A DNA stretch of 34,580 nt from an uncultured bacterium (GTDB lineage Bacteria > Bacillota_I > Bacilli_A > RF39 > UBA660), in contig CAOJEC010000012.1 of assembly GCA_948433885.1 (NCBI GenBank), positions 1-34,580 of the forward strand, in the 5' to 3' direction. Below are positions 5,060 through 34,580 of this stretch, piece by piece. Made by a program: the position numbers and the translations under genes. Below the pieces are notes generated by a model that searched no databases, had not been told where the DNA came from, and saw only the letters and a list, made by a program, of their open reading frames with translations. Positions within the stretch are counted from its first letter, which is position 1; each line of letters begins with the position of its first letter.

Positions 5060-6097
5060 ATGAAAGAAAAAAAAGATAAGATCATACGAGATTTAGAAGA
5101 TGCTTTGAGTAGTGTTTCTAATGCCGTAGAACTCTATGAAGTGAAGGCTGAATTCTTGGGTAAAAAGGGATGTGTGACCGAATTATCGGCGTCTCTCAAA
5201 ACGATGAGTCCCGAGGAGAAAAAGAACTTCGGTAAGAAGTTGAATGAACTCAAAACGGCAGTCGAGGAGAAGTTGACTATCAAAGGAAAAGAGATCGAAA
5301 ATAGAATCTTGAATGAAAAATTGGAAAAAGAGAAGATCGACGTTACTTTACCGGGTATGCAAATCAAATGTGGCTCTCCGAATATTTTGGAAGGATTGAT
5401 CGAAAGTTTGGAAGAACTGTTCATGACGATGGGTTACGATGTAGTAGAAGGTCCGGAAGTCGAAAAGGATCTTTACAACTTCGAATTATTGAATTTACCT
5501 AAAGGTCATCCCGCCCGTGATGCACAAGATACATTTTATGTAAAAGATGACGAATTGCTTCTTCGCAGTCAAACTAGTCCCGTGCAAGTTAGAACGATGC
5601 TTGCGAATGAGGAGAAGGGACCAATTAGAGTCATTTGTCCTGGTAAAACTTATCGACGCGACGACGATGATGCGACTCATTCTCATCAATTTACTCAGAT
5701 GGAAGGACTACTCATCGACAAGGGTGTGAGTTTGGCCGACCTCAAGGGAACTTTCGATATTATTGCCAAATTTTTGTTCGGCGAGAATGTCGACACGAGA
5801 TTTAGAAGTTCGTTTTACCCATTCACTGAGCCTAGTGTCGAATTGGATGTCAGCTGTTTCAACTGTGGAGGAGAAGGATGTCCAATATGTAAATCTACGG
5901 GATGGATCACTGTAGGGGGAGCCGGAATGGTACATCCTAAAGTTCTTTCGAACTGTGGATACGATCCCGATACGATGTCGGGGTTCGCATTCGGTTTCGG
6001 TATAGAACGTTTAGCTATGTTGAAGTACGGAGTAACCGATGTGAGAATGTTTTATACGAACGATTTGAGAACGAACTGTGATAGGAAGGATGTGTAA
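5060..6097 (+). CDS. pheS: Phenylalanine--tRNA ligase alpha subunit
   Basis: A 345-residue class II aminoacyl-tRNA synthetase catalytic subunit (alpha2beta2 enzyme, cytoplasm). The N-terminal ~95 residues form the coiled-coil arm that binds tRNA. Class II motif 2 region is seen in GHPARDAQDTFYV and THSHQFTQMEGL. Motif 3 is FGFGIERLAMLKYGV near the C-terminus. A four-Cys segment CFNCGGEGCPIC before TGWITVGGAGMVHP is common in Firmicutes PheS. The start ATG follows GGAGGAAGG. It is controlled by the T-box upstream and is followed two bases later by pheT. Confidence 0.98.
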   Translation: MKEKKDKIIRDLEDALSSVSNAVELYEVKAEFLGKKGCVTELSASLKTMSPEEKKNFGKKLNELKTAVEEKLTIKGKEIENRILNEKLEKEKIDVTLPGMQIKCGSPNILEGLIESLEELFMTMGYDVVEGPEVEKDLYNFELLNLPKGHPARDAQDTFYVKDDELLLRSQTSPVQVRTMLANEEKGPIRVICPGKTYRRDDDDATHSHQFTQMEGLLIDKGVSLADLKGTFDIIAKFLFGENVDTRFRSSFYPFTEPSVELDVSCFNCGGEGCPICKSTGWITVGGAGMVHPKVLSNCGYDPDTMSGFAFGFGIERLAMLKYGVTDVRMFYTNDLRTNCDRKDV

Positions 6098-10785: not shown

Positions 10786-12330
10786 ATGAGGTTTAACGAG
10801 AAACTTCAACAATTGAGAAAAGAGAACAAACTTTCTCAAGAACAATTGGCCGATATGCTAGATGTCACTAGACAATCGGTATCAAAATGGGAATCGGGAA
10901 CTACTTATCCCGAGATGGATAAACTTATTACGATGTGCAAAATATTCAAGTGTAGCTTAGATGATTTGACGAATGACGAGGTTGAGATCAATCAAAATGT
11001 CAAACAAAATAACAGTGGATTGATCGGCAACCTCATAAATGGAATTATCGAAATCGTAGATAAGAGTGTAAAGATGTTCAGTTCTATGGATGCGAAGCAC
11101 ATAGTAGGAGTGATCGTTTCTCTATTCATTTTAGGATGTTTTTTATGTTTTTTGAGAATACCATTTGTTTACTTAGAAGAAGGATTTTCTAGAATCGTCT
11201 TGAATATTCCTAATAGTGGTATATCTGGAGCCTTCATGGGGCTTTTCAATATGGTCTTGGACATTGTGTTCTTCGTTCTCTACGTGTTGGCGTTCGTGTA
11301 CATTTACAAGGTCGCTTACTTGGATAAGTTCGATTATTCGACCGATCAAAATGAGGGACGTGACAGTAAAGCGGAACACGGGGACAGTGATGAAGAAAAA
11401 ATTGTAAAAGAAGTTAAACCCGTTCATAGGAGTGATGGGAAAAGTAATTCTCTATTTTCGTTTTTTGGAAACATGATCATATGGTTTTTTAGATTGATGG
11501 TCGGCTTTTGTTTGATGCCGTTCGTCATCTCTTTAGTAGGATTATATGCAAGTCTAGTAATAGTTATTGTGATTATGAGCGAAGGTATAACTTACTTCGG
11601 TGTCATGCTTGGAATAATATTTGCGATCATATTGAACGTATGGCTTTTGGAAGTAGGGTGTGTCTTCGTATTCAATAAAAAAGCTTCTTTCAAAAGATTG
11701 TTGTTTACTTTCTTCATCGGTGTAGCCGGCATGGGTGTTTCGCTAGGTATGCTAGCACTAGAAGTCAGCAATACGACTTATATAGATGAGGTTCCTAGCG
11801 AGTTCGAGTTAGTATCTACTGAAAAAGAAATAATGATGAGCGATGATTTGAAATTGTATTGGGCAAACTACTACAGTTATTTGAACTATGAAATAGATGA
11901 AAATTTGACTGACAAGATCGTCATAAAAATGGAATATTATACAGACATTTCTAATCCTGTGATCGATTTGAATGAAGATGACACGATCGAAATTCATCAT
12001 TATTATTCGAATGGCTTCTTCGTCGAAAAGCGAATTTGGGAAGTGTTGAAAAAGGACTTGGCAAAGAAAGAAGTTAGAAACTATGGAGATCTTCACTCTG
12101 TACGTGTGACGATCGTGTCGAGTGAAGAAAATATAGCGACTCTAAAAGAAAATACTAAAAAGCACAAGGATGAAGCATATAAATTGGAGTATAGTAATTC
12201 AGGGTTTGAGATCACGATCAACAATTATCAAAAAAGAATAGAAGATCTAGAGTTAGAAAATGAAGAGTTGAAAGAAAGAATAGAAGAGTTAGAAGATTAT
12301 AAGGACCGAGTTCAAAATGCGATCGATTAG
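10786..12330 (+). CDS. Membrane-bound XRE family regulator with C-terminal coiled coil
   Basis: I place the start at ATG 10786, after GAGGTGA, giving 514 residues; an in-frame TTG upstream lacks a ribosome site. Residues ~3-62 are a clear HTH_3/XRE domain (LRKENKLSQEQLADMLDVTR, then SVSKWESG). Several hydrophobic segments follow (about 94-120, 140-170, 225-300, 315-340). The C-terminal ~170 residues are soluble, acidic and end in coiled coil rich in Glu/Leu (about 470-510, repeated LEEN/ELKERIEELE-like heptads). DNA-binding regulators anchored in the membrane often sense envelope or ion state, but no ligand can be read here. It is monocistronic between two terminators. Confidence 0.85.
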   Translation: MRFNEKLQQLRKENKLSQEQLADMLDVTRQSVSKWESGTTYPEMDKLITMCKIFKCSLDDLTNDEVEINQNVKQNNSGLIGNLINGIIEIVDKSVKMFSSMDAKHIVGVIVSLFILGCFLCFLRIPFVYLEEGFSRIVLNIPNSGISGAFMGLFNMVLDIVFFVLYVLAFVYIYKVAYLDKFDYSTDQNEGRDSKAEHGDSDEEKIVKEVKPVHRSDGKSNSLFSFFGNMIIWFFRLMVGFCLMPFVISLVGLYASLVIVIVIMSEGITYFGVMLGIIFAIILNVWLLEVGCVFVFNKKASFKRLLFTFFIGVAGMGVSLGMLALEVSNTTYIDEVPSEFELVSTEKEIMMSDDLKLYWANYYSYLNYEIDENLTDKIVIKMEYYTDISNPVIDLNEDDTIEIHHYYSNGFFVEKRIWEVLKKDLAKKEVRNYGDLHSVRVTIVSSEENIATLKENTKKHKDEAYKLEYSNSGFEITINNYQKRIEDLELENEELKERIEELEDYKDRVQNAID

Positions 12331-12349
12331 AATATTCTAATCTTTTTTT
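12325..12349 (+). terminator. Terminator overlapping the XRE gene stop codon
   Basis: A perfect 18-base palindrome GATTAGAATATTCTAATC (12325-12342), including the TAG stop, is followed by seven T. Confidence 0.9.
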
Positions 12350-12462
12350 CTTGTGAGATATGCTGTGGAAAAAAGCAAAGTTTTAAACAGTTAAAAATTT
12401 TTAATTTAAGAAATCTTACTAGAGTCATTGAAGTTGTATTAGTTTAAATATGCCGAAGGTTG

Positions 12463-30265: not shown

Positions 30266-30341
<76 letters not shown>

Positions 30342-30351
30342 TATTGTTCAT

Positions 30352-30392
30352 AAACTCGAACTTTTTAATTTTTCTAAGGTTCGAGTTTTAAT
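30352..30392 (+). terminator. Terminator of the tRNA cluster
   Basis: A 10-base stem AAACTCGAAC/GTTCGAGTTT with a 17-base loop, then TTTTA. The following 140 bases up to the next gene are AT-rich with no gene seen. Confidence 0.7.
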
Positions 30393-32880: not shown

Positions 32881-33007
32881 TTAAATTTATTAAAATATTA
32901 TAACTGATTGATTCTTAATTATTTACTTTTGGCAAAAGTTGTAGATAAATTTCTCAACTGCACCAGATTGATAGGAAACTCGAACTTTTCGAGTAAGTAA
33001 TAAATTG

Positions 33008-33061: not shown

Positions 33062-33331
33062 ATGACAATAGAAACTAAAGAACTTGTGATTAGTGAAAAA
33101 TTAAAAAAGAAAGTAGATATGATATGTAAGTTTGCAAGTGTAAAATGTGAACTAGTTAATGGATGTATTATTAGTCTTAAAAATACTAATATTGCCTATG
33201 TAAAGCCACATATCTTAAAAGTTAATAGTAATGATTATTTATTATTTGATGAGTGTGATGACATATTTATAAATGGTTATGCTAAAAGAATAAAAGTTAA
33301 AGATTTAGAAGAATATTTAAGAGAATGTTAA
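33062..33331 (+). CDS. Small hypothetical protein
   Basis: An 89-residue protein that I do not recognise. The ATG follows AAGGAAAGTGAGAG. It is soluble, without signal peptide or membrane helix, with four or five Cys (MICKF, KCELVNGC, FDECDD, REC) and alternating strands then a C-terminal helix (VKDLEEYLREC). AT-rich codon use fits the accessory region. It is preceded by a strong terminator, yet no obvious promoter lies between, so its transcription is unclear. Confidence 0.6.
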   Translation: MTIETKELVISEKLKKKVDMICKFASVKCELVNGCIISLKNTNIAYVKPHILKVNSNDYLLFDECDDIFINGYAKRIKVKDLEEYLREC

Positions 33332-33380
33332 TAAGTGGATTTATGTCAAGTTTTTAGACACGAAAAAGTTTTTTAACTGA

Positions 33381-33761
33381 TTTATTAACCAATATAAATT
33401 ACCTTTAAATTATTCTTTATTTGAAGATGAATATGGCTTACCTATACCACAAAATTATGAAGTAAAAACAAGAGATGAATCAAAAGAATATTTTAATAAA
33501 TTAAATAGTATTTTAGGCAATGAATATAAACTAAATTATTATGAAATAGATACTGATGATAACTTAACTAATCTAAAAATATCTAGTGAAATTGAAGTTG
33601 AAAAAATAATTAGACTAATTACTTTAAAAGATGAAAAGTTTGATGATGGTAATTTAAAACTTGGAGTAATAACAGTAGATTTAGCTGATATTGGAAATAA
33701 TAAAATTAAGGAACTATTAGAAAAAGTAAGAGATACTCTTAAGGAAGATGAATTTGTCTAA
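33381..33761 (+). pseudogene. Start-less ORF, C-terminal fragment of an unknown protein
   Basis: A 126-codon open frame follows a stop at 33378-33380 and ends at TAA 33759, with no ATG, GTG or TTG near its beginning. The translation is protein-like: SLFEDEYGLPIPQNYEVKTR near the start, a central acidic part, then LKLGVITVDLADIGNNK and a helical end KELLEKVRDTLKEDEF. I recognise no family. The missing 5' end coincides with a TGTC...GACA motif and A/T-rich DNA (33343-33378) that resembles a transposon end, so truncation by an insertion is likely. An ATT start is a remote alternative. Confidence 0.5.
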
Positions 33762-33788
33762 TCATTCTACTATATTTACTAAAAATAC

Positions 33789-34015
33789 TAAAATAGGATG
33801 AAAATAGAAGCCGTAAAAGTCTTTAATAATAATGATTAAACCATTATTTATCCTTAATATCAACCTACGAAGTAGGATGAATTTTGCAAGTGCAAAATCA
33901 GAATGGCACATACACAAATCCTTATTTTATAAGGAATAAAATGGTGTTGTGGTGCCATCTTCTTATCCTGCTCTTTTAGATATTTAATATTTTTTGAAAT
34001 TTTCATCCTATTTTA
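33789..34015. other. 227-bp foldback element with five internal hairpins (candidate ncRNA or MITE)
   Basis: A 17-base perfect inverted repeat, TAAAATAGGATGAAAAT (33789-33805) and its complement (33999-34015), encloses five helices. They are AATAATG/CATTATT (33828-33848), CCTAC/GTAGG with GAA loop (33864-33876), ATTTTGCA/TGCAAAAT (33881-33898), ATGGCAC/GTGCCAT (33903-33909 with 33952-33958) continued by CACAA/TTGTG, and at its tip CCTTAT/ATAAGG (33920-33934). No ORF is present. Ends bordered by TA would suit an IS630/mariner-type MITE; the dense nested helices would suit a structured RNA. Strand cannot be assigned. Confidence 0.65.
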
Positions 34016-34064
34016 ATTATTTAATAATCACAGCAACTAGGTAGATTATATTTTAAAAAAAATG

Positions 34065-34095: not shown

Positions 34096-34332
34096 ATGAA
34101 TGAAGAGAATATTGAAAAAATACAAAAAGCCAGAAAATTTTGTTTTGAAGTAAAAGAATTAGCCGAAAAATATAATTTGCCATTTTTTGTTGTAACTGAT
34201 GGAGCTAGTGCAACATCTAACAATGGTTGTGTAGCAGTGAAGAATGCAAGAGATAATCATATTAATTGGGAAAAAGAAAATGGATTTGATCCTTATGAAG
34301 ATTGGAGCAAAAAAGAGGAAACAAAAAATTGA
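34096..34332 (+). CDS. Conserved small island-type protein of unknown function
   Basis: A 78-residue soluble protein. The ATG follows AGGAGAAGAAG. An N-terminal helix (NIEKIQKARKFCFEVKELAE) leads to YNLPFFVVTDGASATSNN, then VKNARDNHINWEKENGFDPYEDW. I recall this arrangement, especially FFVVTDGAS and NARDNH, in short uncharacterised proteins of Firmicutes mobile elements; no function is known. It overlaps nothing, but the next gene begins about eight bases after its stop, so they form an operon. Confidence 0.65.
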   Translation: MNEENIEKIQKARKFCFEVKELAEKYNLPFFVVTDGASATSNNGCVAVKNARDNHINWEKENGFDPYEDWSKKEETKN

Positions 34333-34339
34333 TAATATA

Positions 34340-34579
34340 ATGAATTTGATGGATTCCATTGAATATGGTTTTAAAGATGAAAATGGTGAAAGTATCATTA
34401 ATGCTAATCCCCAAAAGTGGGATGATGAATTTTATTTGCAAACTCCAGATGAATTGTTAAAATCTAAATGTGGTGTATGTTGGGATCAAGTAGAATTAGA
34501 AAGAAAATTATTTCAAGATAATAAAGTTACAGTTCACTCAAAGAACAGAAAAATAGGTAACCCTTCTGGAATACCTTAA
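34340..34579 (+). pseudogene. Transglutaminase-like protein, truncated by the terminal repeat
   Basis: ATG 34340 (or 34349) begins NLMDSIEYGFKDENGE, then YLQTPDELLKSKCGVCWDQV and ELERKLFQDN. The GVCWDQVELE part resembles the active-site Cys helix of small transglutaminase-like proteins of about 150-200 residues, whose His and Asp follow later. From 34526 the sequence is the window-end repeat; it encodes an unrelated tail ending in NPSGIP before TAA 34577, so the natural C-terminus is lost. The cut may be real (insertion of a repeat) or a chimeric contig end. The start lacks a well-spaced ribosome site and may rely on coupling to the upstream gene. Confidence 0.6.
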
Positions 34580-34580
34580 A
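34526..34580. repeat. Terminal inverted repeat, right copy
   Basis: The reverse complement of 13-67 with a single mismatch. It reaches the last base of the window and fuses to the 3' part of the transglutaminase-like ORF. Confidence 0.9.

Follow-up and report, generated by a model that had tools for sequence, protein, structure and literature searches.

A covarying foldback on an island of an uncultured Bacilli bacterium is very probably an origin of transfer of the MOBMG/MOBL type

Pairing, homologues and covariation

The question raised by this locus is what purpose a densely paired segment near the end of a contig might serve. The window, by which we mean the whole stretch of 34,580 nucleotides analysed from an uncultured bacterium (RF39, UBA660), contains at 33789–34015 an A/T-rich foldback without an ORF, which a preliminary description took for either an RNA with function or an IS630-like MITE; the element has several copies per genome, and the contig ends 565 nt beyond the foldback, so that the far side of the island lies outside it. 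The 17-base inverted repeat is perfect as had been described, 33789–33805 (TAAAATAGGATGAAAAT) being the exact reverse complement of 33999–34015, and a repeat finder stretches the arms to 24 nt at 88%. Folded as single-stranded RNA, positions 33770–34035 reach −61.6 kcal/mol on the forward strand (z −6.2, with none of 200 shuffles as good) and −68.4 kcal/mol on the reverse strand (z −6.6), which bears out the claim that pairing is denser than chance would give. The view that no known RNA family is represented also stands, the Rfam search at the element returning no family at the gathering threshold and chance-level matches only below it.

Because of the neighbouring genes, covarying helices, core, specificity motif and recombinase remnant described below, we propose that positions 33763–34010 on the forward strand are very probably an origin of transfer (oriT) of the MOBMG/MOBL type, named 'MobP2' by NCBI, on a decayed integrative mobilizable island that lacks a relaxase. 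An oriT is a short site that is nicked by a conjugation enzyme to send DNA to another cell. The assignment is made from sequence, through homologues of the element that precede operons with a MobL relaxase, and the limits include the outermost specificity motifs. The earlier boundaries hold for the foldback but are slightly narrow for the element, with a degenerate motif copy identified in alignments (CATTCTA, CATCCTA in relatives) lying outside them at 33763–33769.

A search of 98 relatives found about 20 strong copies, and 20 sequences were aligned with MAFFT as the core alignment for a covariance model; compensatory changes occur in 14 of its 24 pairs. Within the family the model matches 129 of the 386 genomes sampled, and in a sample of 392 genomes from the phylum only two genomes outside the family match, both weakly. 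Across 99 distinct sequences 93.3% of cells are paired, and 508 cells show changes on both sides of the pair. The covariation score of 0.568 compares with 0.197 (sd 0.008) for shuffled alignments and at most 0.136 with partners slid, although this larger alignment leans towards the structure because it was fitted to it. Homologues and covariation, which the preliminary description had named as the way to check the locus, are thus both found. An exact pattern search for the conserved hairpin gave 101 stretches in bacterial genome contigs, those listed being mostly metagenome-assembled genomes whose titles name Bacilli, Tenericutes, Clostridia or Erysipelotrichaceae, with rumen or gut as a frequent source. 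Of 96 such stretches searched, 95 fit the covariance model.

Helices, core and likeness to known origins of transfer

The model matches the window at 33846–33978 with 145 bits, and all the features within this match lie on the forward strand. Hairpin P4 (33861–33880; CCTAC GAA GTAGG) contains the motif TAGGATG at 33873–33879 and shows changes on both sides in all four of its pairs. It is followed by the conserved hairpin P5 (33881–33898; ATTTTGC-AAGT-GCAAAAT), in which 99.7% of cells are paired and two pairs have compensatory changes, and then by the branched stem P6 (33903–33958). The base of P6 pairs ATGGCAC at 33903–33909 with GTGCCAT at 33952–33958 (changes on both sides in seven of eight pairs) and its apical hairpin pairs TCCTTAT at 33919–33925 with ATAAGGA at 33929–33935 (five of five). 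Pairing of the right arm of P4 with TTATCCTGCT was noticed in the window type but is absent from other types, and was dropped. The inner helices are kept in relatives, whereas the outer 17-base repeat is kept only in the window subgroup of nine copies; in a larger subgroup the 3' copy of the motif it carries points the other way, so the family as a whole is not closed by a constant outer stem.

Covarying P6, with its apical hairpin, stops 3 nt 5' of a conserved core, which is the branched-hairpin arrangement of MOBMG/MOBL oriTs. The core, CTTATCCTG|CT at 33962–33972, fits the MOBP consensus (PMC3772185) and corresponds to the MOBMG oriT core (PMC4652767), and a nick is predicted between G33970 and C33971, a position at which we infer the cut. 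Nearly all of 139 copies have CTTATCCTG or CTTATGC[TC]C. The window reads CTTATCCTGCT, a variant of the MOBMG/MOBL core CTTATGCTCTT; the TATCCTGC inside it conforms to (C/T)ATCCTG(C/T), the consensus for MOBP nicks (PMC3772185). Beside MobL genes in conjugative loci of the same family, 16 copies have CTTATGCTCT and 11 have CTTATCCTG[CA], so that a single family has as alternatives CTTATGCTCTT, the core known from MOBMG, and the nick sequence classical for MOBP. A Levilactobacillus MobL plasmid has CTTATCCTGTT.

Three groups of known oriTs offer useful comparisons. O'Brien et al. described five plasmids that share the core CTTATGCTCTT and a branched hairpin, and in which a variable repeat and a ribbon-helix-helix (RHH) protein set specificity (PMC4652767); according to Eto et al., such RHH proteins bind two mutually similar oriT sites (PMC8136818). 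The pWBG749 oriT and the mimics of it on Staphylococcus aureus plasmids that are not conjugative (MOBMG; PMC4652767, PMC8136818) resemble the window element in having a branched hairpin before a conserved core, and the window family likewise has a variable repeat, which in the pWBG749 type sets specificity through the RHH protein. The mimics are carriers without a relaxase that are mobilized in trans, as we propose for the island in the window, likewise a relaxase-less carrier. The differences are that the window family resides on islands in the chromosomes of uncultured Bacilli, accompanied by large serine recombinases, that the core reads CTTATCCTGCT rather than CTTATGCTCTT, and that motif copies are more numerous.

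The second comparison is with oriTLS20 of the Bacillus subtilis plasmid pLS20 (MOBL), an experimentally defined 362 bp segment that precedes the genes for two RHH auxiliary proteins and for the relaxase (PMC5313138, PMC5675868). Window-family copies in conjugative islands likewise lie upstream of RHH auxiliary genes and MobL, and the family shares with pLS20 a stem with an apical hairpin and repeats that would be auxiliary-protein sites; in pLS20 the repeats are followed by the stem TGGTACCA...TGGTGCCA, the counterpart of P6, and then by CTTATGCTCTT. There is however little sequence similarity, and the covariance model does not recognise the pLS20 oriT (9.9 bits), so that the link to pLS20 rests on plan, motif and gene order. 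As tblastn of the island MobL against plasmids gave no match, the plasmid comparison was queried with the pLS20 relaxase instead, and in ten further MobL plasmids the corresponding gap contains CTTATGCTC or CTTATCCTG, in most cases together with such a stem and in two cases on the opposite strand. The published pLS20 nick (beside GGGGGCCGG, template strand; region L115 27740–27815) does not coincide with the shared core, being on the opposite strand at a distance of about 50 bp from CTTATGCTCTT. For pWBG749 the CTTATGCTCTT core is reported to contain the nick (PMC4652767), and one of these two mappings may not be valid for the family. Finally, the MOBP oriTs of RP4 and the VirD2 nick region (PMC3772185) have, as here, an inverted repeat just 5' of (C/T)ATCCTG(C/T), but the relaxase beside window-family copies is MobL and the repeats and auxiliary proteins are unrelated in sequence.

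Gene neighbourhood and alternative explanations

The neighbours of the element were surveyed at 139 non-redundant loci. Conjugative islands account for 31 of them, and in 28 of these 31 the element is followed on its own strand by a MobL relaxase gene, the start of which is usually 0.9–1.3 kb away; an M23-peptidase gene is immediately upstream in 26 of the 28. In these identifying copies the element has the M23-peptidase gene on one side and, on the other, an operon that encodes small DNA-binding proteins together with the relaxase, the latter scoring above the Pfam MobL cut-off; order and strand are constant. The place upstream of an RHH-MobL operon is thus occupied by 28 non-redundant homologues; the window copy has no relaxase beside it, as expected of a relaxase-less carrier. 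A large serine recombinase is found near the element at 79 loci (41 with the recombinase downstream, 26 upstream and 12 in opposite orientation), and the remaining 29 have neither relaxase nor recombinase within the sequence compared, often a short stretch.

An independent search for MobL genes covered 193 genomes of the family. The weaker-scoring group has the element upstream on the same strand in 11 of the 12 cases with upstream sequence. The strong-scoring group gave no match to the covariance model, and seven of nine members checked have CTTATCCTG or TATCCTG[CT] 0.7–1.1 kb upstream. The window's own assembly yielded no MobL or PF03432 relaxase, an absence that is provisional because the assembly is 91% complete, and it does have a VirD4-type coupling-protein gene. 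This gene (E 5.7e-57) belongs to a run of T4SS-like ORFs at G000:C13 4811–15469 (L291), in which no relaxase was found and no CTTATGCTC or CTTATCCTG core was seen in the stretch examined. At locus L168 (2569–4143; G237:C6, RNA-orientation) the oriT is separated from the RHH-MobL operon by a 525-aa ORF, by its look a possible reverse transcriptase, at a position without an ORF in other conjugative islands. Near the oriT copy of L003 there is a sub-threshold Rfam match to ssNA-helicase RNA at 629–677 (34 bits, gathering 41.5).

Strong covariation, conserved loop sequences and a fold far above shuffles would all be expected of a structured RNA, cis-regulatory or small, carried by mobile islands and working after transcription, and covariation taken by itself would fit the preliminary suggestion of a functional RNA. 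However, the motif conserved on the 3' side is a consensus for nicking by relaxases, enzymes that bind hairpins of such a kind in single-stranded DNA (PMC4652767). The adjoining genes vary in kind and side, the element being upstream of relaxase operons or on either side of recombinases, which is expected of an oriT and not of a leader; the repeats also occur outside the hairpins and track RHH type, and Rfam has no match. Neighbours, nick consensus and likeness to experimentally studied oriTs together account for these helices as the folded single-stranded DNA of an oriT, and we regard an RNA as a quite improbable reading. The analysis thereby explains away an apparent new RNA and yields a covariance model for the element. 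A leader of the recombinase gene was also entertained, as the first copies were all upstream of a recombinase, and was abandoned when later copies were found downstream of one or beside relaxases.

Origins used by HUH Rep proteins also have a nick-like core, a hairpin and iteron-like repeats. The same three features here would therefore fit a rolling-circle replication origin with a Rep-type nick site, serving replication of excised islands and not transfer. The gene beside autonomous copies is nevertheless a MobL relaxase among T4SS genes, and no Rep-type gene was present among the neighbours scanned, which are part of all neighbours, making this a very remote prospect.

The perfect 17-base repeat, A/T-rich composition, absence of an ORF and several copies per genome would fit an IS630-type MITE moved by a transposase acting on terminal inverted repeats, but we consider this extremely improbable. 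Copies are not defined by TA-flanked terminal repeats, and the outer repeat is unconserved beyond the subgroup, its 3' half being inverted in most relatives. Neighbours stand at fixed distances: either the stop codon of a recombinase, which in the window and eight siblings precedes the model match by 88 nt, or T4SS and relaxase genes at near-constant distance. Homology with siblings reaches the recombinase gene on one side and extends up to 58–160 nt past the nick on the other, so that the foldback is not bounded as an insertion in its own right. Transposon ends, considered for the inverted pairs of copies, were likewise rejected as a general account, most copies being single and internal.

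Specificity motif, host island and proposed mobilization

Every element repeats a short motif particular to itself, both 5' and 3' of the core and within the P4 hairpin. The 17-base repeat of the window amounts to two inverted copies of TAGGATG with A/T flanks, one on the forward strand at 33794–33800 in the left arm and one on the opposite strand (CATCCTA) at 34004–34010 in the right arm, the latter kept in the window subgroup; as noted, P4 holds the same motif. When P4 7-mers were counted on either strand and flanks swapped among 105 elements with distinct P4, own 5' flanks held 3.50 on average against 1.19 (sd 0.16) for swapped ones, and own 3' flanks 2.90 against 0.87 (sd 0.13). TAGGATG-type elements with a recognised RHH gene encode a first beta strand MRRF or MRIF, both beside a relaxase and on relaxase-less islands, and other motif types carry other RHH proteins, such that RHH type tracks motif type. 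Motif and RHH type could constitute a readable specificity code predicting which helper could move which island.

The setting beside a truncated gene and small flanking genes, noted earlier, proves to be an island whose left end, a GCACCA junction on the forward strand at 32955–32980, is marked by a sharp start of homology at 32960 shared by many copies. In 14 distinct loci ARAGORN places the 3' CCA of a tRNA gene exactly here, with eight tRNA kinds represented (Leu-tag, Leu-caa, Thr-ggt, Thr-cgt, Phe, Arg-cct, Arg-ccg and Ala; loci L189, L202, L232, L243, L255, L260, L263, L292, L297, L299 and others), as if the large serine recombinase of these islands targeted tRNA 3' ends in general. The window differs, 32960 being preceded by the apparent end of another island and not by a tRNA; since homology with six relatives ends right after a tRNA-Phe (3' end 30341, junction region 30341–30360), two islands appear to stand in tandem behind that tRNA. 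Some other left-end sites likewise resemble tandem-island junctions.

Within the island, again on the forward strand, an 89-aa ORF (33062–33331; 84% identity over 87 aa with L171) is the counterpart of one that precedes the recombinase gene in sibling islands, intact in L171. The truncated ORF next to it (33361–33761) is the remnant of that recombinase, its last 140 residues with the frame broken, and matches the 619-aa L171 protein by tblastn with 82% identity over 127 aa (E 2e-57). The first cargo genes, a 78-aa and then a 111-aa ORF (34096–34580), run beyond the contig end and recur in sibling L196. Sibling islands resemble one another across the recombinase end and the oriT, and their sequences part 58–160 nt past the nick; only L196 stays similar up to the end of the compared stretch.

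Integrative and mobilizable elements (IMEs) have an integrase and a mobilization sequence without a conjugation apparatus, and most of those described have their own relaxase. The islands here share the integrase and mobilization sequence but have only an oriT, some with an RHH gene. In the window the oriT is present, the integrase is reduced to a remnant and the right end lies beyond the contig; the intact sibling L171 has both oriT and integrase.

A plausible scheme for mobilization starts from a conjugative element with the same specificity, for example one whose oriT is of the TAGGATG type, as in genomes G111 and G209. This element would enter the cell, its RHH auxiliary protein would bind the TAGGATG copies, and its MobL relaxase would bind the hairpin and nick CTTATCCTG|CT, whereupon the strand 3' of the nick would go to the recipient, cargo first. 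An intact sibling recombinase would excise the island and integrate it at tRNA 3' ends; the window copy is probably unable to excise by itself because its recombinase is cut down to the last 140 residues. The oriT reading points to a mobilization network in uncultured small-genome gut and rumen Bacilli, absent from the cited oriT literature, that would consist of MobL conjugative islands and many islands with only a matching oriT and a serine recombinase.

Nine pairs of oriTs lie within 6 kb of each other (L094, L095, L096, L097, L098, L099, L243, L248 and L266), all convergent, forward then reverse, with cargo between, and wherever both P4 motifs are readable they differ between the two copies. 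Conceivably, such pairs of different specificity are exchange points at which relaxase-mediated oriT-to-oriT recombination swaps cargo between recombinase-borne islands, which would amount to a conjugation-based cassette system with nick sides facing the cargo, but we think this unlikely; cargo exchange exactly at the nick was not seen in the window subgroup, where siblings diverge at the distance given above. Elsewhere, in L100, a LysM-repeat gene seems to be split (5232–5624 and 12052–12402) by an island of another subgroup comprising cargo, oriT, an RHH gene and a 521-aa recombinase, and similar LysM pieces flank L040, L042, L048 and L049, which suggests that islands of that subgroup target a site inside LysM genes.
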